A program made the position numbers and the translations under genes. Shown here in pieces: positions 27,876 to 37,881 of a stretch of 64,000 nucleotides of DNA (its first letter is position 1; the number at the start of each line of letters is the position of its first letter). This stretch comes from Bacteriovoracaceae bacterium (GTDB taxonomy: Bacteria; Bdellovibrionota; Bacteriovoracia; Bacteriovoracales; Bacteriovoracaceae). The stretch covers positions 124,001 through 188,000 of the forward strand of contig JAHDBN010000001.1 of NCBI GenBank assembly GCA_020630335.1, written 5' to 3'. Below the pieces are notes generated by a model. The model had not been told where the DNA came from and ran no database searches. It was given only the letters and a program-made list of their open reading frames with translations.

Positions 27876-28946
27876 ATGCCTATATATTGGATTAATGGAT
27901 TAATCTGTTTACTTTTTTCACTCCCAATTTACTCGAATATTAAAAAATCAGAAGCTATGCTTCTTGGAAGCCTATATGGCGATGCCCTTGGTGGCCCTTT
28001 AGAGTTTTCTAAAAGAAAGAAAAATTCATTATATTTTCAAGCTTACAAAAAGGGAAAATCTCCATTTGCTGCGTGGACTGACTTTGCTGAACCTGGAAGC
28101 ATCACTGATGATTCTAGGCATAAAATCATTTTTTTTAATACTATAAAAAAATACAAGAAAATTTCTAAATCTAATATTGCAAGAAGTTATATAGATTATT
28201 CTAAAGTAAAAGATAAGTACTTTCCTCTTAGGAAGAAATGGTTAAATGAATACTCCCAAGCAGCCTCTTGGGTTCTAGATCTAAAGACTCGTCATAAAAA
28301 ACCTCCTGAGACACTTTTTAATTCAGTAGCAAATGTTTCAGGCCAAATGTTCTTTATTCCTCTTGCTGCTTTTTATCCGAACCAACCTCTTCAAACTTAT
28401 TTAAAATGCTTTGAATCAAATTGGTTAGATCAATCAGGTGCGAAAGATTTTAATTGTATGATTATCGCTGGCATTTCTTCTTTGCTAAAAGAAAGATCTT
28501 CTATGCATGATTATATCAAAACTATTAAATCTATAGATCCATTTAAGCTAAACAATTCTATTTATACAAAAAGAAAAATTTCTTTTTTTTTAGATCAAAT
28601 ACTTACTTTAGTTTCAAAGAATTATTCCTCTCGTAAGAATAGAAAAGAACTAAAAAGAATTTTAAATATACAGTATGGATGGGAAGATCACGTAGCTTTT
28701 TCGATAGTAACCTTTTATCTCCTAAAATATCCTAAACATCCACAAAGAGCTATAAATGAGATTATTGAGTTTAAATGGGATACTGATACATATCTACAAT
28801 TAGCTTGTGCAATAATTGGAGCAATTCACGGAAAAGATTTTTTTCCAATAAAAGAAAGAAATCTTCTCATTCAAAATCTAAAAAAAGATTACGATCTGTC
28901 TTTTGAAGATTGGCTCTTACTTCTTCCTGGGAAAAGCGATTTTTAA
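27876..28946 (+). CDS. Probable exported ADP-ribosylglycohydrolase family protein
   Basis: This 356-residue protein has DraG/ARH family motifs: LLGSLYGDALGGPLEF (29-44), GSITDDSRH (74-82, the acidic metal motif, usually TDDT) and WDTDTYLQLACAIIGAIHG (301-319, corresponding to DxDTxxxxxGxxxG). These Asp residues coordinate two magnesium ions in enzymes that remove ADP-ribose. About 27 extra N-terminal residues (MPIYWINGLICLLFSLPIYS) precede the usual family start and look like a signal peptide, so the enzyme may act in the periplasm or outside, which is uncommon. It starts three bases after rpoZ and overlaps the convergent lon gene by 30 bases. The second metal motif lacks the usual DAD, so activity is not certain. 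Confidence 0.8.
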   Translation: MPIYWINGLICLLFSLPIYSNIKKSEAMLLGSLYGDALGGPLEFSKRKKNSLYFQAYKKGKSPFAAWTDFAEPGSITDDSRHKIIFFNTIKKYKKISKSNIARSYIDYSKVKDKYFPLRKKWLNEYSQAASWVLDLKTRHKKPPETLFNSVANVSGQMFFIPLAAFYPNQPLQTYLKCFESNWLDQSGAKDFNCMIIAGISSLLKERSSMHDYIKTIKSIDPFKLNNSIYTKRKISFFLDQILTLVSKNYSSRKNRKELKRILNIQYGWEDHVAFSIVTFYLLKYPKHPQRAINEIIEFKWDTDTYLQLACAIIGAIHGKDFFPIKERNLLIQNLKKDYDLSFEDWLLLLPGKSDF

Positions 28947-31436
28947 TACTTCATCAAAATGTTTTACAGGATAAAACTTTAAGCCCTTACGGTGACGTTC
29001 TGGGACTTCTTTTAAATCTTTTTTATTATTAAAAGGAAGTATGATTTCTTTTAGCCCTGCTCTTTTAGCAGCTAATACTTTTTCTTTTATCCCACCAACG
29101 GGCAAAACCTTACCTGTTAAGCTTAACTCTCCAGTCATTCCCAGAGTTGTTCTTATCTTTTTATTATTAGCAAGGCTATATAAAGCTAGAGCCATTGTAA
29201 TACCTGCACTTGGTCCGTCTTTAGGTGTTGCTCCTGCAGGAAGATGTAAATGAACTTCATGACTTGCAAGAAAATCTTCTTCTTCTTCTGAATTTTCTTT
29301 TTTCTTTTTAGAAGTTTTCTTTTTCTTTTCTTTAATTTCATCTTCTTGAAGAATAGATTTCACATAACTATAAGCAAGATTAGCTGATTCATTCATCACA
29401 TCACCTAACTGTCCAGTTAATTTAAAACCTTTACCTAATAATGGTATTGATTCAACTTGGAGTATATCTCCTCCGTAAGCTGTCCATGCTAATCCTGTTA
29501 CAATTCCTGGACTAAGCGTTTTTTCAAGTTTTTCTGATGAAAATCTTTTTGGCCCAAGATACTTCTCAAGAGAAGAAATTTCAGGAGAAAACTTTTTAGA
29601 CTTTTTAGATTTTCTTTTTACTTTTTCTAAAACAGCTATTCTACAAAGCTTTGCTACTATTTGCTCTAAACTTCTAACTCCAGCTTCTCTTGCATAATCA
29701 TGAATGAGTTGTTTTATAACTGTTGTTTTTAATTGAAAGTCTTCTTTTTTCAATCCATGTTTTTTTAATTGCTTTGGTATAACCCACTTATTTGCGATAA
29801 TGACTTTCTCTTCTAATGTGTAACCACTTAACGTTATAAGCTCCATTCTATCCAATAAAGCTTCAGGGATTTCACCTACATAATTAGCAGTTGCAACAAA
29901 TAATACTTTTGATAAATCAAATGGAACATCAAGGTAATTATCAATAAATGTTTTGTTTTGCTCAGGGTCTAAAACTTCAAGAAGAGCTGATGCTGGATCT
30001 CCTTGATAAGATTGTCCTAATTTATCAATCTCATCTAACATCAAGACTGGATTATTTACTTCGACTCTTTTTAAAGCTTGCAATAATTTACCTGGCATAG
30101 CACCAACATAAGTTTTTCTATGCCCTTTAATTTCAGCCTCATCTCTCATGCCACCAAGGCTAAATCTATAAAACTTTCTTCCTAGAGCTTTAGCGATACT
30201 TTTACCCATTGAAGTCTTACCAACACCAGGAGGCCCTGCTAAACAAAGAATTGTCCCATCGTAATCATTTTTTATTTTTCTCACTGCTAAGAACTCTAAA
30301 ATTCTTTGCTTTGCTTTTTCTAAACCATAATGATCTTTACTTAAGATTTTTTCAGCTTCATCTATATCGATATCTTTTTCTGAGCTTTTGTCCCATGGAA
30401 GATCTACTATCCAATTAAGATATGTCCTTGTGACATTATACTCTGGTGAAGTTTCTGGGATGTTTTGAAGCCTTTCTAGCTCTTCTTTGGCAACTTTTAG
30501 AACATCTTCTGGAATATCTCTTGTTTCTAGTTCTTCTTGAATTCTTTTTACTTCTTTAGATTTATCATCATCATCAAGGCCTAACTCTCCTCTAATGATT
30601 TTTAATTGTTCTTTAAGATAATATTCTCTTTGGTATTTATTTACTTTATCATTTACCTCATCAGTGATTTTCTTTTGAATATCAGCAACATCTTTTTCTC
30701 TTCTTAGATAAACTAAAAGTTTTGCAAATCTTTTCTTAACAACAAGTGTTTCAACAAAATCTTGTGCTTCTAAAATATCAAGCGATAAAGAAAATGCAAC
30801 TAAATCTGCTAATGCTCCAGGAGATGGAGAATTAAGCATTGCAAGTTTCATTTCTTCATTAAAATAAGGATTGATTTCACTTAGTTTTTTTACCTGATTA
30901 ATTACTGACCTTGTATAGGCATCTAATTCTTCATCATGATTTAAAATATCATCATAAACTTCTGGTTTTGCTATAATAAGTTTCTCATCAGAAACAAACT
31001 TTTTAGCTCTATATCTTTTTAATCCATGAACTAATAAGTTTACTGATCCATCAGGTAATTTTAATTTTTTTACAACCTTACAAATAACTCCAACTTTATA
31101 TAAATCTTTCGATTTTATAGAATCTAAATCTTCTTCATCAAAGACATCTGCTTCAAATTCAATACTAGGATTAAATTCTTTATTCTCAGAATCATCTTCC
31201 TCTTCAGATCTTTCTTCTTCTTTATACTTAACGAGGTTAAGAGAAATATAACCAACCTTTCCGACGTAATCATCAAGCTCTGAAGTATATTTTTCTTCAG
31301 ACATTACTACTGGTGCAATCATACCAGGATAAATAGGTGTATTCAGAATAGGAATAACAACAACTTCACTTGGGAGTTTTCCTTCTAAATCTTTAGGACT
31401 GTCATAATTAATTTTAATAGTCGTACTATCACTCAT
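28917..31436 (-). CDS. lon: ATP-dependent protease Lon
   Basis: This 839-residue protein has the LonN substrate domain, a helical region, AAA+ motifs (GPPGVGKTSMGKSIA, VLMLDEIDKLG) and the serine-lysine protease domain with PKDGPSAGI (Ser743) and GGIKEKVLAAKRAG (Lys786). Lon degrades misfolded and regulatory proteins in the cytoplasm. It is longer than E. coli Lon (784) because of charged insertions: EEERSEEEDDSENKE in the N-domain, KRKSKKSKKF, and KEKKKKTSKKKKENSEEEED just before the protease domain. It follows the UvrA-like gene by 45 bases. Confidence 0.96.
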   Translation of the reverse strand: MSDSTTIKINYDSPKDLEGKLPSEVVVIPILNTPIYPGMIAPVVMSEEKYTSELDDYVGKVGYISLNLVKYKEEERSEEEDDSENKEFNPSIEFEADVFDEEDLDSIKSKDLYKVGVICKVVKKLKLPDGSVNLLVHGLKRYRAKKFVSDEKLIIAKPEVYDDILNHDEELDAYTRSVINQVKKLSEINPYFNEEMKLAMLNSPSPGALADLVAFSLSLDILEAQDFVETLVVKKRFAKLLVYLRREKDVADIQKKITDEVNDKVNKYQREYYLKEQLKIIRGELGLDDDDKSKEVKRIQEELETRDIPEDVLKVAKEELERLQNIPETSPEYNVTRTYLNWIVDLPWDKSSEKDIDIDEAEKILSKDHYGLEKAKQRILEFLAVRKIKNDYDGTILCLAGPPGVGKTSMGKSIAKALGRKFYRFSLGGMRDEAEIKGHRKTYVGAMPGKLLQALKRVEVNNPVLMLDEIDKLGQSYQGDPASALLEVLDPEQNKTFIDNYLDVPFDLSKVLFVATANYVGEIPEALLDRMELITLSGYTLEEKVIIANKWVIPKQLKKHGLKKEDFQLKTTVIKQLIHDYAREAGVRSLEQIVAKLCRIAVLEKVKRKSKKSKKFSPEISSLEKYLGPKRFSSEKLEKTLSPGIVTGLAWTAYGGDILQVESIPLLGKGFKLTGQLGDVMNESANLAYSYVKSILQEDEIKEKKKKTSKKKKENSEEEEDFLASHEVHLHLPAGATPKDGPSAGITMALALYSLANNKKIRTTLGMTGELSLTGKVLPVGGIKEKVLAAKRAGLKEIILPFNNKKDLKEVPERHRKGLKFYPVKHFDEVLKIAFPRKK

Positions 31437-31481: not shown

Positions 31482-34067
31482 TCACCCAAGAAAACTTGTC
31501 TCTATCTTTCCTGAAGGGGAAATTTTTAACTCATAATCAGCATAATTACTAAATACTTCATGATGATCAATTAAGCATACGGAATTGCCTTGATCCACTA
31601 GATTTCGAAGAAATTTAGCTATTGCTGGAAGTTCTGCTTGGGATATACCAAAAGATAGATTTTCAAGAATAATAAACTGATTATTTTGCTTCTTGATTAA
31701 CTTAGAGAGTAAATAAATTCTTTGTTTTTCTCCACCCGAAAGAGAAGAAATTTTTCGATCTAAAGATAAGTAATCTAAATTTAATTTTTTAAAATACTCA
31801 TAAATTTTTTTAAATTTTGGTGTTAGTGGGATTCGATCAAGAATTTTACCCATGGGCGAACTTAACGCTTCATAAATAGTTTGAGATCCATCATTAACTT
31901 CTGCATACTCTGGCTTGATTCCTTTGGCATCACATTCATCACAAACTAGCCGTATATCATCCATATAAGGCATTTCTACTAATTCGTAACCACTACCCTG
32001 GCACTTATTACATTGACCTAATTTAGAGTTCGAAGAAAAGTGGCCAGCTTCAAAACCTGATATTTTAGAAAGCTCCAAATTGGCGTAATACTTTCTAACA
32101 TTCCCAGATAAATCAGTTAAGCTTCCTACGCTTGATCTACTAGTAAAACGATTTAAATTTGCATCGATAGTAATTATTCCATCTGGTAAGTTCTTAGGTG
32201 AACTTTTTATAATACTTTTCTCTAATAGTTTATTACCTAAATATTCAGAGTGTAATTGATAGTTTAAATCGTTTGCAAAAATATTTTTTAAATAAGTAGT
32301 TTTCCCTGATCCTGTTTCACCTTTAACTAAGCAAAAAGAATTATTGGGAATCTTGGAGCTAGAATAGCTTCTGTTAAATACATCAAACTTATTACATACA
32401 AAGAATTCTTTGCTCTTATTTCTTTTAATCACTTCATTTTTTAACTTTTTACTCTTTTTAAACTTACCTTCATAAACAATTTTTCCACCTTGAGGTCCAG
32501 CTCCTGGCCCAAGTAAAAACAAGTGATCAGAAGCCTGTGCTAGTGTTTCAGAATGTTCAACTAAGACAACAGTATTTCCTTGATCTTTTATTTTCTTCAA
32601 TCTTTTAACTAAAAGTTTTTGCTGATTTTTATCAAGACCAACACTGGGCTCATCAAACACAAATAAGCTTCCAGTTCCCTCAAAAGAAAGATACTTAACA
32701 AGTTGTATCCTCTGATACTCTCCTGCTGAGAGAGTTTTAGTTTTTCTTGATATATTTAAATGTCCTAAGCCAATATCTATTGATGATTCAAGAATAAGTT
32801 TTATTTTTTTCAATAAAAGTTCAGAACTTTCATTGTTTGGTTTGATTTTAAGAATTGATTTAAGAAGCTCCTCAATATTCATCTTATAAGTGTTAGTAAT
32901 GCTAATTTTTTTATCTATTCTAAAATTATGATAATTTTTGTTAATTCTAGTCGTTAAACATTCATTGCAAGGTTCTTCTACTTGTATTTTCTTTAAGATC
33001 ACTCTAATGCCAGGCTTATATTTTTTTCTATTTAAATATTTTTCTATTTTGTTAAAACCAGTCCATCCCCCTGATCCTTCATAAAAATTTTTTTCAAACT
33101 CTTTTTGGATTTTTTTTATAGGAATCGAAGTAGAGATTTTTTTCTTTTTTAGAACTTTTTTGAATTCATTTTCCATCGAAGAGAATCTATTCATTCTAAA
33201 AAGAAGTACTCCTTCTTTATCGATACTTAAAGATTCATCAAATAAGCGATCTTTTGATATTACTAAATTGGCTCCAAAGCCCTTGCACTTAGGACAAGCT
33301 CCCTCTGCATTGAATGGAGAAAAATAATTTTCTGATATTTTTTCTTGTCCCTCGTAATCACATTTAGAACAACTTTTAGATTTAAGGTAATGAAACCTTT
33401 TTAGATCTTCATTGTTTACTTTATAAAAAATCTCCACTTCTTCTTTTATGGAAGTATTAAGTTTTTTTATACTCTTCCCTTTAACTCTTAAGATTTCCCA
33501 ATAAGAATCTTGGAGATCAAAGTCTCTAATTTCACCATCTTGATTACATGTCCGAGGAGGCAAAATGCCTTTTCCTAAAATCTTTATAAAAGATTTTCTT
33601 TTTATAAAAAAATGAATTCTATCAGTGTCTTTAATTTTTTCACTCTTTAAAAACTGCTCTGAGAGATCTTGCTTAAATAATTTAATATCATGATCTGGGC
33701 AATACTCTTCAGAGAGATTATAAAATAAGCTTTGAATTAAATGAGTTACTCCAAGGCTATCAGAAACCGTAGTTCGAGATCCCTTAACAGGATTAATTTG
33801 CTGGAGCCCAAAAACAGGAAGCACAGGTGCAACTCTATCTACATCTATACTTGCAGGTTTCTGACTAAAAAATCGTAGATTATTAGGATAACAATTCATT
33901 AGCCTTCTTTTAGATTCTGCTAAAAGAGTGTGATACGCTAAAGAGGTTTTCCCTGAACCCGAAGGACCCATGAAACAGGTAATTTCTCCTATTGGTATCT
34001 TTAGAGATAAATTTTTTAAATTGTTTACCCGGACACCTTCAAGGTGGATATAATTTTTTTTAGCCAT
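31482..34067 (-). CDS. UvrA paralogue with degenerate second ATPase site
   Basis: This 861-residue protein follows the UvrA plan but is shorter than canonical UvrA (about 940). First ATPase: GPSGSGKTSLAYHTLLAES, zinc module CSKCDYEG...CPKCKGFG, signature LSAGEYQRIQL and intact Walker B LFVFDEPSVGLD. Second ATPase: KGETGSGKTTYL, zinc module CNKCQGSG...CDECDAKG, signature LSGGEKQRIYL, but Walker B reads FIILENLSFGIS: the normal Asp-Glu pair is Glu802-Asn803, so hydrolysis at this site is doubtful. It is probably a UvrA2-like paralogue in damage tolerance or drug response rather than the main excision-repair UvrA. It lies 24 bases after rpsI, apparently in the rplM-rpsI transcript. Confidence 0.85.
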   Translation of the reverse strand: MAKKNYIHLEGVRVNNLKNLSLKIPIGEITCFMGPSGSGKTSLAYHTLLAESKRRLMNCYPNNLRFFSQKPASIDVDRVAPVLPVFGLQQINPVKGSRTTVSDSLGVTHLIQSLFYNLSEEYCPDHDIKLFKQDLSEQFLKSEKIKDTDRIHFFIKRKSFIKILGKGILPPRTCNQDGEIRDFDLQDSYWEILRVKGKSIKKLNTSIKEEVEIFYKVNNEDLKRFHYLKSKSCSKCDYEGQEKISENYFSPFNAEGACPKCKGFGANLVISKDRLFDESLSIDKEGVLLFRMNRFSSMENEFKKVLKKKKISTSIPIKKIQKEFEKNFYEGSGGWTGFNKIEKYLNRKKYKPGIRVILKKIQVEEPCNECLTTRINKNYHNFRIDKKISITNTYKMNIEELLKSILKIKPNNESSELLLKKIKLILESSIDIGLGHLNISRKTKTLSAGEYQRIQLVKYLSFEGTGSLFVFDEPSVGLDKNQQKLLVKRLKKIKDQGNTVVLVEHSETLAQASDHLFLLGPGAGPQGGKIVYEGKFKKSKKLKNEVIKRNKSKEFFVCNKFDVFNRSYSSSKIPNNSFCLVKGETGSGKTTYLKNIFANDLNYQLHSEYLGNKLLEKSIIKSSPKNLPDGIITIDANLNRFTSRSSVGSLTDLSGNVRKYYANLELSKISGFEAGHFSSNSKLGQCNKCQGSGYELVEMPYMDDIRLVCDECDAKGIKPEYAEVNDGSQTIYEALSSPMGKILDRIPLTPKFKKIYEYFKKLNLDYLSLDRKISSLSGGEKQRIYLLSKLIKKQNNQFIILENLSFGISQAELPAIAKFLRNLVDQGNSVCLIDHHEVFSNYADYELKISPSGKIETSFLG

Positions 34068-34091
34068 AGGTAAAACGTAAAAAGAAAAGTT

Positions 34092-34496
34092 CTATCTTTT
34101 CGAGAATTGGAAAGATTTCCTTGCTCCAGCAAGACCGTATTTCTTTCTCTCAACTTTTCTAGCGTCTCTAGTAAGAAATCCAGCTTTCTTTAATTCTGGA
34201 CGATGAGCTGCATTTATTTTTTCTAAAGCTCTAGAGATCCCAAGTCTTATAGCTCCCGCCTGACCTGTAGAACCGCCACCTTTAACGTTAATATTAACGT
34301 CATATTGGCCATTAAGCTCTAATAAATTCATTGGTTGATCAACTACGTATCTACTTGTTGCTTTTGGAAAATAATTTTCAAATTCTCTTTTATTGATAGT
34401 TATTTTTCCAGTTCCTTGTTTAACGTAAACTCTAGCTATTGAAGATTTTCTTCTTCCGACTGCTTGTGCAAGGTAAGTGTTTGTAGTTGTATTCAT
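34092..34496 (-). CDS. rpsI: 30S ribosomal protein S9
   Basis: This 134-residue protein has the S9 core ([39 protein letters not shown]) and the basic tail ending [11 protein letters not shown], whose last Arg reaches the P-site tRNA. The length is normal. It follows rplM by 13 bases in the universal rplM-rpsI pair. Confidence 0.98.
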
Positions 34497-34509: not shown

Positions 34510-34974
34510 TTATTTTGTTTCGTATCTATTTGCTGGTTTAAAAGTCTCAGGATTTTGTGCTTCATGAGTATGCTCTGGACCAACAAAGATTTTCAACTTC
34601 TTTAATTGTTTTCTACCAAGAGAATTCTTAGGAAGCATTCCTTTTACAGCATGCTCAAGAATCGTTTCTGGTTTTCTTTTGAATTGCTCTCTAGCAGTTC
34701 TATCTTTAATCCCACCAACGTAACCTGTGTGCCAGTAGTATTTCTTTTTATCTAACTTATTTCCAGTAAATCTAATTTTTTCACAATTAGTAACAACAAC
34801 GAAATTCCCTGAATCAATATTAGGTGTATATTTAGGATTATTTTTCCCTCTTAAAATGTCTGCAATCTGTGTAGCAAGTCTTCCTACTACTTGATTATCT
34901 GCATCTATATGGAACCATTTTGCTGAATCAACTGACTCTTGATTCGTTAAATTTGTTGTCTTCTGGATAAACAT
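34510..34974 (-). CDS. rplM: 50S ribosomal protein L13
   Basis: This 154-residue L13 has the family signatures KWFHIDADNQVVGRLATQIADILRGK, HTGYVGGIKDRTA and HAVKGMLPKNSLGRKQLKKLKIFVGPEH. It is an early-assembly 23S rRNA-binding protein. It begins its own transcription unit, with a good promoter upstream, followed by rpsI. Confidence 0.98.
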   Translation of the reverse strand: MFIQKTTNLTNQESVDSAKWFHIDADNQVVGRLATQIADILRGKNNPKYTPNIDSGNFVVVTNCEKIRFTGNKLDKKKYYWHTGYVGGIKDRTAREQFKRKPETILEHAVKGMLPKNSLGRKQLKKLKIFVGPEHTHEAQNPETFKPANRYETK

Positions 34975-35067: not shown

Positions 35068-37881
35068 CTAAAAGAACCCAATACTTAATCTAAACTCCCC
35101 AGGGCTTTCTTTTCCAGCAATAGTTGTTCTTCTTTTTAGCTTGAAGCCATAATCAACATCAATTGTTCCTACAGGCGTTACATATTTAAGAGAAAGCCCA
35201 GCAGAAGTTCTAAGATCTAAGGGCCTATAATTATTAACTTGGATATTTCCAGCATCAAAAAATAGACCCATTACAATACTTTCACCAAGAACGTATCTAG
35301 GTTCAAATTTAAAATTGGTCATGAATGCTTTGTTATCAATAATGATATTACTTATATCATTAGAGGAATCAATCATGTTGATTTCTCTTTCTTTAAACCC
35401 CCTGACTAAATCAGCTCCGCTGAGTCTAAACACTTTAATACTTGGAATAAATCCAGTGCTTTCACTAAAGCTAGGCTTTAGATCAGTCGCATGATTTGTC
35501 TGGACACCGAAAGATAAAGAGGAAGCCAAATAAAATTTACTAGTAATAGGAAGATAGAATTTAGATCGAGAAACAAACTTTCCGAAGCTCACTTCTGGAT
35601 CACAGTTAGCTGCGACGAAGCTACAACTATTATCACCTTTTTGAGAACCAAGAAAAGATTTCGCTATTTCATAAGATAATTGAAGCCAAAATCCTGATTT
35701 AGGAAAAACAGGGTTATCTCTATAATCAATAACAATACTTGGAGTAAAACTTCCAATCTGAAATGCGCCCTCATCGCTTGGGCCATTGAGGTTTGGACTC
35801 GCATTAAATTGCTCAATACTCTCAAAAGAATAAGTTCCAGTTAAACCAAAGTGTCTTCCAAAATCTCTCTTAATAGAATTTGATACTCTGAAAATATCCG
35901 CATCAAAATCAAACAACCTAGATCTTGAATAACTTAGAGTTGTAAAGTTATCCCAATACGATTTGAAAATATCAGGATAAGAATAAGAACTTTTTAAAGA
36001 ATATTCTAAGAATTTGTTTTTCTGCCTCTTTGGATGATTGTCTAAATCCTCCAAACTCAATCGATAGTTAACTCCTGCTTGGATATCTAGGGTTTGATTT
36101 AAGCCTAGCAAGTTTTCTCTTGTAAATCTTGTTCCAAGTTTTAAACCTAAATCAGTTCTGAAACCTGGAGCAATTTCTAATGAGCCAAAGTTTTTCTCCT
36201 CTAACTTAATAGCAATAACTGCCTTTTTATCTCTTCCTCTACTTTTAGAGTCCAAGATTTCTGTTCTTATACTTTTGAACAAATTCAGATTGCTAATGCG
36301 TCTTCTTACTTCTTGCATTGCTTCAGGTGTTAGCATCTCCTTTTTAAGGCTAGATAAACTTCTTTCCAAAACAGAGTTTTTAGTTTTCTCTAGTCCTATA
36401 AAAATAAATTTTTCGATTTCATACTTTGAAGACCTATTAACTTGTATGAAAAGATTAACTGTTCGATTATTATTTGAATATTCAACAATTTCATTATCGT
36501 CACTAACAATTCTGGAGTAAAAATATCCTTCAGCAAGCATTTTCTTTTTTAGTTCTTTTAAATTTTCGGAAAAAATTATTGGGTTAAAAAAATCACCTTC
36601 TTTTAAGTCAAATATTTCATATTCTTTTTCTAAGTCATTCTTTTTTTCATCAACAACTCTTATGCTTCCGACTTTAGTCTGATCACCTTCCTCTATTTCT
36701 ATTTGAACACTCGCTTTACTTTGATTCATCAGAAGTCTTGCTTTTGAAGAGAGAAATCCATTTTGTATATATAAATTTTTAATTGATTTTATGAATTGTT
36801 GATAATCCTTTTCTTCCCATATTCCCTTTTTACTTAAATCCGATGATATCTCATCAAAAATATCCTTAAGCTTCTGAGTTGAGAAAAATTTATTACCTCT
36901 GATTGACATGTTTTTCAGCTTTAATCTCTCTGCTTTCTTCAAAATAATTTTCTTATGAATTAAACTCTCATCACTTTGATCTACTTCAGAAACAATTTCA
37001 AACCTTCTATTTGCGTATCCTTTTTTATCTAAAAAATCAGCTATTAGTCTTCTTATAGAAATTTCCGAATATTTCCTACTGCCTCCTGAAAAGTACTTTC
37101 TGATCTTTTTGTATACAGATTTTTTAACTATCTCATTATTCTCATCTTCAAAATCGAATGAAACTCTTCTTAAATCGCCACACTCCACTCTATACCTATC
37201 ACCTTCAAGCTTGACATTTAACTCTGAGAAGTAGAAACCTAAATCCTTTAGAACCTTCTGAGTTTCCTCTGTTAATCTTATCATACGGTTTTTATCATAA
37301 GGTTTTTCTATCAAACCTCCCAATACTGTCTGTACTCTTGATTTTGCAAAATTATTATCACAAGAGTATGAAATATCTTTTATAAATTTCTGAATACCTT
37401 TCTCTATTTTATAATGAACTAATAAGCCATCTTTATATTTTTCTTTAACAAAACTCACCTTGCTGTTTTTATAACCTTTCGTCTTAAGAAACTTTTCAAT
37501 AGACTGAATATCTTTTTTTAAAACAGCTATATTTTCGTAGGTGTTTTTTTCTAGGAATAAATTTCTTTCTATTTGTTTTCGAAGAGATCTTTTAATGCCT
37601 GAAATTTTTATTTTTTTAACCTTGGCTCGCTCATTAATATCTAAATACAATACTTTTTCATTCAATTTGAAATGAAATTTTTTGTAATTACTTTTCGAGT
37701 AAAACATTTCAAAGACTCTGAGAAAATCTTTTTCATTTTGGTACTGTCGCACTAAGTTTTTTTTATTTTTTCCAAAATATTTGCATGTATCTTTCCCCAT
37801 ACAATTGATAACTACTTTTTGAACTTCAATTGAAGATGAAAACAAACTCATTGATAAAAATAAAAAATACAATATTTTCAT
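35068..37881 (-). CDS. Large TamA-like Omp85 outer-membrane protein
   Basis: This 937-residue protein has a signal peptide (MKILYFLFLSMSLFSSS), a long periplasmic part (about 20-570) with repeated POTRA-like units (KVKKIKISGIKRSLRKQIE, LKLKNMSIRGNKFFSTQKL, KYEIEKFIFIGLEKTKNSVLE), and a C-terminal 16-strand barrel. The barrel carries the Omp85 VRGF motif (ADLVRGFKE) and ends KYVTPVGTIDVDYGFKL...FRLSIGFF, with a terminal aromatic. E. coli TamA has three POTRA domains in 577 residues; here five or six seem to fit. BamA is the other option, but the preceding tamB-like gene (stop/start overlap TAATG) favours a translocation and assembly module role. Confidence 0.85.
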   Translation of the reverse strand: MKILYFLFLSMSLFSSSIEVQKVVINCMGKDTCKYFGKNKKNLVRQYQNEKDFLRVFEMFYSKSNYKKFHFKLNEKVLYLDINERAKVKKIKISGIKRSLRKQIERNLFLEKNTYENIAVLKKDIQSIEKFLKTKGYKNSKVSFVKEKYKDGLLVHYKIEKGIQKFIKDISYSCDNNFAKSRVQTVLGGLIEKPYDKNRMIRLTEETQKVLKDLGFYFSELNVKLEGDRYRVECGDLRRVSFDFEDENNEIVKKSVYKKIRKYFSGGSRKYSEISIRRLIADFLDKKGYANRRFEIVSEVDQSDESLIHKKIILKKAERLKLKNMSIRGNKFFSTQKLKDIFDEISSDLSKKGIWEEKDYQQFIKSIKNLYIQNGFLSSKARLLMNQSKASVQIEIEEGDQTKVGSIRVVDEKKNDLEKEYEIFDLKEGDFFNPIIFSENLKELKKKMLAEGYFYSRIVSDDNEIVEYSNNNRTVNLFIQVNRSSKYEIEKFIFIGLEKTKNSVLERSLSSLKKEMLTPEAMQEVRRRISNLNLFKSIRTEILDSKSRGRDKKAVIAIKLEEKNFGSLEIAPGFRTDLGLKLGTRFTRENLLGLNQTLDIQAGVNYRLSLEDLDNHPKRQKNKFLEYSLKSSYSYPDIFKSYWDNFTTLSYSRSRLFDFDADIFRVSNSIKRDFGRHFGLTGTYSFESIEQFNASPNLNGPSDEGAFQIGSFTPSIVIDYRDNPVFPKSGFWLQLSYEIAKSFLGSQKGDNSCSFVAANCDPEVSFGKFVSRSKFYLPITSKFYLASSLSFGVQTNHATDLKPSFSESTGFIPSIKVFRLSGADLVRGFKEREINMIDSSNDISNIIIDNKAFMTNFKFEPRYVLGESIVMGLFFDAGNIQVNNYRPLDLRTSAGLSLKYVTPVGTIDVDYGFKLKRRTTIAGKESPGEFRLSIGFF

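Follow-up and report, generated by a model that had tools for sequence, protein, structure and literature searches.

A UvrA paralogue with an altered second Walker B motif

We analysed a 64,000-nucleotide stretch of the genome of a Bacteriovoracaceae bacterium (phylum Bdellovibrionota, order Bacteriovoracales; assembly GCA_020630335.1, contig JAHDBN010000001.1, positions 124,001 to 188,000; hereafter the window), and in particular a gene on its minus strand, uvrA', that encodes a relative of UvrA. The protein matches UvrA models over most of its length and scores far under their cut-offs (385.5 bits against 729.8 for TIGR00630, and 399.5 against 1147 for NF001503, which leaves it outside the UvrA equivalog). 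Its second Walker B motif reads FIILENLSFGI where the canonical UvrA of the same genome has LYVLDEPTTGL, such that the Asp is replaced by Glu802 and the catalytic Glu by Asn803 (LDE to LEN).

The two ATP sites of UvrA are composite, the proximal site being formed by ATP-binding domain I with signature domain II, and the distal site by ATP-binding domain II with signature domain I (PMC6486640; for this and the other cited papers, here and below, our statements refer to passages of the source). For comparison we fetched 89 copies of the paralogue, three of which are shorter than 770 amino acids; the 86 full-length copies were analysed, and nine of the 98 matching genomes, whose copies were partial in the order-wide search described below, were left out of the fetched set. 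The positions of Gln90 and Ala636, presumably those of the Q-loops, are listed with the other features of the gene, and fractions of 86 refer to these full-length copies.

31482..34067, minus strand: uvrA', the UvrA paralogue (P0001); ATG start, 861 amino acids; mean predicted local distance difference test (pLDDT) score 85.1, Foldseek match 3uwx
33942..33968, minus strand: Walker A I, G34-S42 (proximal site); GSGK in 86/86
33798..33800, minus strand: Q-loop I, Gln90 (proximal site); Gln in 86/86
33360..33701, minus strand: Cys123-Cys236, holding zinc module 1 (our assignment) and the equivalent of the UvrB-interaction domain, diverged
32997..33239, minus strand: insertion domain, Pfam UvrA_DNA-bind, residues 277-357; found in 27/29 members at E 0.01
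32709..32732, minus strand: signature I, LSAGEYQR (distal site); S.GE in 48/86
32634..32666, minus strand: Walker B I, LFVFDEPSVGL (proximal site); Asp-Glu in 86/86
32553..32555, minus strand: H-loop I, His505 (proximal site); His in 86/86
32298..32321, minus strand: Walker A II, GETGSGKT (distal site); G..G.GK[ST] in 61/86
32160..32162, minus strand: Q-loop II, Ala636 in place of Gln (distal site); Gln in 0/86 relatives and 98/99 comparators
31932..32012, minus strand: zinc module 3, Cys686-Cys712; four Cys in 86/86
31719..31742, minus strand: signature II, LSGGEKQR (proximal site); LSGGE in 86/86
31644..31676, minus strand: degenerate Walker B II, FIILENLSFGI, with Glu802 and Asn803 (distal site)
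31563..31565, minus strand: H-loop II, His835 (distal site); retained here, His in 3/86

An earlier note on this DNA, made from its letters alone, had described a UvrA paralogue whose second ATPase lost the Walker B Asp-Glu pair. The loss is borne out: LEN stands for LDE, the Glu is kept in none of the 86 relatives, and the Asp-Glu pair is present in all of the 99 comparators. The note had also seen the Walker A, signature and zinc modules as retained, which is correct for Walker A I and II, the LSGGE of signature II, the FVFDEPS of Walker B I and the zinc cysteines, but not for signature I, which reads LSAGE; a further loss lies at the Gln position of the second-half Q-loop, now Ala636. Two ways in which the proposal might have failed can be set aside. 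The window protein is not the only UvrA of its genome (2.36 Mb in 39 contigs, 98.35% complete), since checking the genome for a canonical uvrA found one at G000:C31:278433-281102 (1113.8 bits against the cut-off of 729.8). With this gene and uvrB (1021.3 bits) elsewhere in the genome, the window protein is a paralogue; it is 30% identical to its own canonical UvrA. Nor can a sequencing error account for the change, the catalytic Glu being absent from 86/86 full-length copies; its conservation in relatives, another point to be checked, is complete for the loss of the catalytic Glu (0/86).

A conserved proximal site and a degenerate distal site

Each key element of the proximal site (Walker A GSGK, Walker B Asp-Glu, H-loop His, LSGGE and Q-loop Gln) is retained in 86/86 copies, with variation in its flanks (Walker B Pro in 80/86, D-loop Gly in 78/86). 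By contrast, the distal catalytic Glu at position 803 is retained in none (Asn in 79, Asp in six, Ser in one), the distal Walker B Asp at position 802 is present in 9/86 (Glu in 72, Asp in nine, Thr in three, Ser in two), the distal Q-loop Gln is absent from all 86, and the distal H-loop His is lost in 83 and kept in three, all of which belong to the window's genus. The residues that replace the distal Walker B pair are themselves conserved among the paralogues. One consensus composite site together with another that lacks the catalytic Glu (86/86 and 0/86, respectively) is the arrangement of degenerate-site ATP-binding cassette (ABC) proteins. The earlier note had assigned the degeneracy to the second ATPase; it belongs instead to the composite distal site of ATP-binding domain II and signature I, and the intact site is made up of domain I and signature II.

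In part of the order the distal site has lost more of its motifs. Of the 86 copies, 46 have Walker A II and signature I intact and 23 have lost both, with Walker A II alone intact in 15 and signature I alone in two, such that one or the other is lost in 40/86; S.GE of signature I is lost in 38/86, and the LSAGE of the window's species is a mild change. The joint decay of the two motifs amounts to five and four changes with two independent pairs, and has no statistical significance. In the window's species, nucleotide may still bind at the distal site without being hydrolysed, because the Walker A Lys589, His835 and a near-consensus signature I persist. The earlier picture of one active and one dead site therefore stands as far as one site is intact and the other degenerate, and "dead" is too strong for this species.

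Both Walker B motifs have Asp-Glu in 99/99 comparators, namely 24 canonical UvrAs, five second UvrAs of other Bdellovibrionota and 70 proteins that we label class II-like. The last were taken among the matches listed, with search patterns that held signature II and not Walker B; because signature II was among the patterns, its conservation in the class II-like proteins is not independent. We dropped seven rows of comparators: L039 (a paralogue), two tandem UvrAs, three over-long frames and one partial sequence. The canonical UvrA of the window's own genome (L001:1492-4224) has lost most of the cysteines assigned to module 1 (SPAT and CADT in the alignment), and it scores 17.4 against UvrA_DNA-bind (cut-off 23.2).

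Predicted fold, zinc modules and the UvrB-interaction region

An AlphaFold2 model, computed from an alignment of the window protein with 44 related sequences, has a mean pLDDT of 85.1 and a predicted template modelling (pTM) score of 0.77, with residues 171-190 averaging 50-52. The best Foldseek match of the model is UvrA (3uwx; E 1.2e-61, TMq 0.80). With VIA, Ecm16 (Z 36.1, 2.7 Å over 580 residues) and Thermotoga maritima UvrA without residues 117-399 (Z 36.1, 2.5 Å over 581) are followed by full-length UvrA 2r6f (Z 35.2, 4.1 Å over 803), and ABC-F and ABCE1 proteins reach Z 21.3 at most. The predicted structure thus has the UvrA superfamily fold.

Zinc modules 2 and 3 retain all eight of their Cys in 86/86 copies. 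At the positions that we assign to module 1, C123 is present in 86, H126 in 80 (Cys in the other six), C233 in 86 and C236 in 81 of the 86, and 112-127 residues separate the outer Cys columns, at the place of the UvrB-interaction domain; the median for class II-like proteins is 0. The window protein is not matched by Pfam UvrA_inter at E 0.01. In 29 members of the family, 39 Pfam families were found; UvrA_inter is outside the 25 commonest, the last of which occurs in two members, so that at most 2/29 paralogues can have a match. It was found in 5/6 controls, the sixth being class II-like. Alignment of global profiles with hhalign relates the paralogue domain weakly to the UvrB-interaction domain, with a probability of 90-94, zinc Cys included, as compared with 99.9 for second versus canonical UvrAs. 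These comparisons indicate that the UvrB-interaction domain is retained as a module that has diverged beyond recognition by Pfam. The insertion domain, UvrA_DNA-bind, is found at E 0.01 in 27/29 members, and in the window protein it scores 23.0 against a cut-off of 23.2.

The retention of the module 1 ligands and of a domain of ~120 residues at the UvrB-interaction place, unlike in class II proteins, would be expected of an alternative sensor for nucleotide excision repair that recognizes other lesions and loads UvrB via its diverged interaction domain. The genome has a uvrB, and zinc module 3 is intact in 86/86 copies, as such a role would allow. We nevertheless regard this role as unlikely, given that UvrA_inter goes unrecognised in at least 27/29 members and is recognised in all of the controls but the class II-like one, that both ATP sites are reportedly needed for UvrA function (PMC6486640), and that the genome also encodes a canonical UvrA.

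Genomic neighbourhood

The gene lies in a run of genes on the same strand, with rpsI 24 nt upstream and lon 45 nt downstream, in agreement with the earlier placement next to the ribosomal genes and lon. All three neighbours score above their NCBIfam cut-offs.

34510..34974, minus strand: rplM (ribosomal protein L13), which precedes rpsI
34092..34496, minus strand: rpsI (ribosomal protein S9), 24 nt upstream of uvrA'
28917..31436, minus strand: lon, 45 nt downstream of uvrA'

The usual order across relatives is tamB, an Omp85 gene, rplM, rpsI, uvrA', one to three genes, and lon. We found rpsI at 83/89 loci, on the same strand in 80/80 measured and within 150 nt in 73/80. At three of the six loci without it (L030, L142 and L168) the copy begins at or near a contig end, at L145 ~1 kb of upstream sequence has no rpsI, and at L192 and L194, from one genus, more than 2.7 kb of upstream sequence has none. 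Co-transcription with rplM-rpsI is plausible: a scan for terminator-like sites listed none on the minus strand between 31200 and 35300. The rpsI stop codon lies within a weak hairpin that is rich in A/U and has a T run (window 34077-34105; z -0.05, no better than shuffles); a terminator between rpsI and uvrA' was rejected, the hairpin being unformed when two relatives of the same genus, with one and the same sequence at this place, were folded.

We found rpsI in 24 of the 31 genomes thought to lack uvrA' and read 20 of these loci: at 15, rpsI leads straight to the next conserved gene, one has unrelated sequence between, two are rearranged, one carries a fragment and one ends at a contig edge. 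With 15/20 loci clean, the slot is steady and the absence clean. Since the gene order persists without uvrA', position alone says little about function. This bears on the idea, hinted at by the place after rplM-rpsI, that the protein acts on the ribosome or rRNA in the manner of ABC-F or ABCE1. The linkage to rpsI, close and on the same strand at most loci, is the argument for it; the fold, however, is far nearer to UvrA than to ABC-F or ABCE1 proteins (Z 36.1 versus 21.3 for the best of these), two carriers of one genus (L192 and L194) lack rpsI within 2.7 kb upstream, and the genes preceding rplM encode an Omp85 protein and TamB, neither of which belongs to translation. We therefore consider action on the ribosome very improbable.

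The adjacency of lon is restricted. Among 19 loci listed, no gene separates uvrA' from lon in two, one gene does so in one, two in five and three in nine, and lon is not reached in two. Because lon directly follows uvrA' in only 2/19, both in the window's genus, we dropped a functional link based on this adjacency. In many genera (L120-L138 and others) the genes between uvrA' and lon encode a protein of ~240 amino acids with no Pfam match (L121 examined), a matrixin-family protease and an AMIN-domain protein; all three are absent between uvrA' and lon in the window and at two same-genus loci. Before rplM, at window 35068-37881 and adjoining tamB, lies an Omp85-family gene (206.9 bits against the BamA cut-off of 297.15) whose product may be TamA-like or BamA-like. 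On the strand opposite to lon, window 27876-28946 holds a 356-amino-acid open reading frame of the ADP-ribosylglycohydrolase family (PF03747, 84.7 bits), which shares 30 nt with the 3' end of lon.

Distribution, selection and origin

Our order-wide search used a profile built from 29 relatives; L030, which lacks its N-terminus, was excluded from the profile and included in the 86. The paralogue is present in 98/129 genomes of the order, representing 29/48 genera, with a fragment at a contig end (L217) in one further genome; a class-wide search covers the same 129 genomes, all of one family. A search of 290 sampled genomes from the phylum found 80 that match at E 1e-150, 74 of them from this family; the six others score 523-575 bits in frames of 924-958 amino acids, the length of UvrA, and the five of these six that were read have both Walker B pairs intact. 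Among the matches listed in a search of named genomes, one paralogue was seen, L039 from a Bacteriovoracales MAG; further relatives may exist outside the order. Full-length relatives are 34-61% identical to the window protein. Spread by plasmids was rejected after a search of 72,556 plasmid records gave no hit at E 1e-60.

The ratio of nonsynonymous to synonymous substitution rates (dN/dS) is 0.028-0.053 in four of seven close pairs (dS 0.36, 1.74, 1.94 and 2.36), with dS saturated in the other three; selection thus maintains uvrA' in the genomes that carry it. Presence was mapped on a marker tree, a fast tree in which long branches meet, that omits five of 106 loci for lack of sequence; it needs eight changes in presence, at least five of them on well-supported branches. 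The count alone gives no direction; we infer repeated losses rather than gains because the slot is the same. In one genome (G048, locus L195), the copy is split in two frames and lacks the end of signature I and Walker B I, which reflects either a broken gene or an assembly error. This copy, the patchy presence and the erosion of the distal site are what would be expected if the gene were a decaying relic without function. We give this notion next to no weight: it is contradicted by the low dN/dS, and a relic would hardly retain its proximal site in 86/86 copies, or its full length in relatives that are 34-61% identical to the window protein.

On trees with 19 and with 10 paralogue rows, the paralogues are a single group (support 100/100 in the latter), and a branch with 98/98 support places them on the same side as the second, intact UvrA of other Bdellovibrionota (five rows). 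The approximately unbiased (AU) test rejects placing them with the order's own canonical UvrA (p 0.00036) and, less strongly, with class II (p 0.0175); the tested groups were named after inspection of the tree, and long branches urge caution. A recent duplication of the order's own UvrA was discarded on the first result, and membership of class II on the second, together with the presence of the module 1 and UvrB-domain positions. The first result also speaks to a regulatory partnership in which the paralogue forms mixed dimers with canonical UvrA and its degenerate distal site alters scanning or residence on DNA. The two proteins share a fold and a genome, and UvrA acts as a dimer (PMC6486640), as this would require; their long separate history makes it improbable.

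Comparison with known systems

The paralogue resembles class I UvrA (TIGR00630/PRK00349) in fold, domain order, the two ABC modules, the zinc ligands and, in most members, the insertion domain. It differs in its degenerate distal site, in a UvrB-interaction domain that goes unrecognised, and in lacking the conserved C-terminal Gly-rich positions. Class II UvrA-like proteins (Deinococcus radiodurans UvrA2, Ecm16 and DrrC) are likewise UvrA paralogues that apparently act outside UvrB loading, and Ecm16 is a tied best structural match (Z 36.1). Neither the UvrB-binding domain nor zinc module 1 is present in Ecm16 and UvrA2, however (PMC10192343), whereas the window family retains the positions of both, and all 70 class II-like comparators retain both Walker B Asp-Glu pairs.

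The second UvrA of other Bdellovibrionota (L234-L238), on the paralogue's side of the 98/98 branch, differs in having both Walker B pairs intact (5/5 read), a recognised UvrA_inter (2/2) and scores above the TIGR00630 cut-off (3/3); rpsI is on another contig in 5/6 of the genomes and 130 kb away in the sixth. We found two UvrAs in all six Bdellovibrionota genomes searched outside the order (L234-L238 and L239-L245), and on the tree the second of them lies nearest to the paralogue.

ABC exporters with a degenerate site (Pdr5, TAP, CFTR and ABCB11) likewise combine one consensus and one degenerate composite site, but are membrane transporters rather than soluble ATPases of the DNA-repair type. 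In Pdr5 the Walker B Glu is Asn, and there are changes in the H-loop, Walker A and the opposite signature (PMC7756269); judged by its motifs, the paralogue's design is closest to Pdr5 among these exporters. The word UvrA does not occur in the main text of that review of degenerate sites (PMC7756269), and we found no report of a degenerate-site UvrA among the listed open-licence papers on UvrA paralogues, degenerate sites and predatory bacteria, which is weak evidence of absence. We also considered a defence gene and rejected it: the best PADLOC matches, mad3 and mad8, are also the top matches of canonical UvrA and score higher there, and are therefore generic.

Discussion

We propose that this UvrA paralogue, specific to its lineage, acts as a DNA-binding ABC ATPase in which each monomer has a single hydrolysing site, and we put the probability of this, as read from motifs and domains, at roughly 60%; its cellular role is our inference. 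The two unlike ATP sites of UvrA have been studied with point mutants. Mutants of the distal Walker A or Walker B lose the burst and hydrolyse slowly, at DNA-dependent rates, Walker B mutants, distal ones included, still bind nucleotide, and in the authors' model ATP binding raises the affinity of UvrA for DNA (PMC6486640). The paralogue would behave as a permanent distal mutant whose cycle is confined to the proximal site. There, next to the DNA groove, ATP would close the protein on DNA, and its slow hydrolysis would release the DNA; the distal site would serve as a fixed, nucleotide-holding strut where Walker A II and signature I persist, as in the window's species and others, and would be empty in species that lack both. 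Without normal loading of UvrB, the protein would not itself start excision. Instead, it may bind and hold DNA that is probably distorted, or pass it to another partner during growth.

Several observations weigh against this proposal. In the mutant study it is the distal site that is tight-binding and fast, ATP binding at the proximal site is weak, and function is said to need both (PMC6486640), so the proximal site alone may not make a useful motor. The gene is missing in part of the order, and its function is therefore dispensable. DNA binding is deduced from domains, with the insertion domain of the window protein just below its cut-off, and the loss of UvrB contact from a failed profile match, in a region that hhalign still relates to the UvrB-interaction domain. 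Among the four pairs for which dN/dS could be estimated, three have dS above 1.7; the 86 copies, having a common ancestor, are not independent; and two independent pairs are too few to test whether Walker A II and signature I decay jointly.

Beyond a DNA-binding ATPase with one hydrolysing site, we suggest more tentatively, as a possibility that we would not yet favour, a branch of UvrA outside excision repair: a one-stroke nucleic-acid clamp, with its distal site fixed or empty, that has acquired a new partner through its diverged UvrB module and is co-expressed with ribosomal proteins in growth.

The family is a natural experiment on why UvrA has two ATP sites. The distal change is fixed across the order and graded, from a site that may bind and should not hydrolyse nucleotide to one of which little is left, and the gene is under purifying selection; the division of labour between the sites of UvrA is thereby made directly testable. 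The degenerate-site design is extended from membrane exporters to a soluble UvrA-type ATPase. If the more tentative clamp reading is true, this would be the first ABC ATPase of the DNA-repair type with one active and one degenerate site, as far as our searches reach, and the series of species would show a distal composite site decaying piecewise while the proximal site stays fixed.

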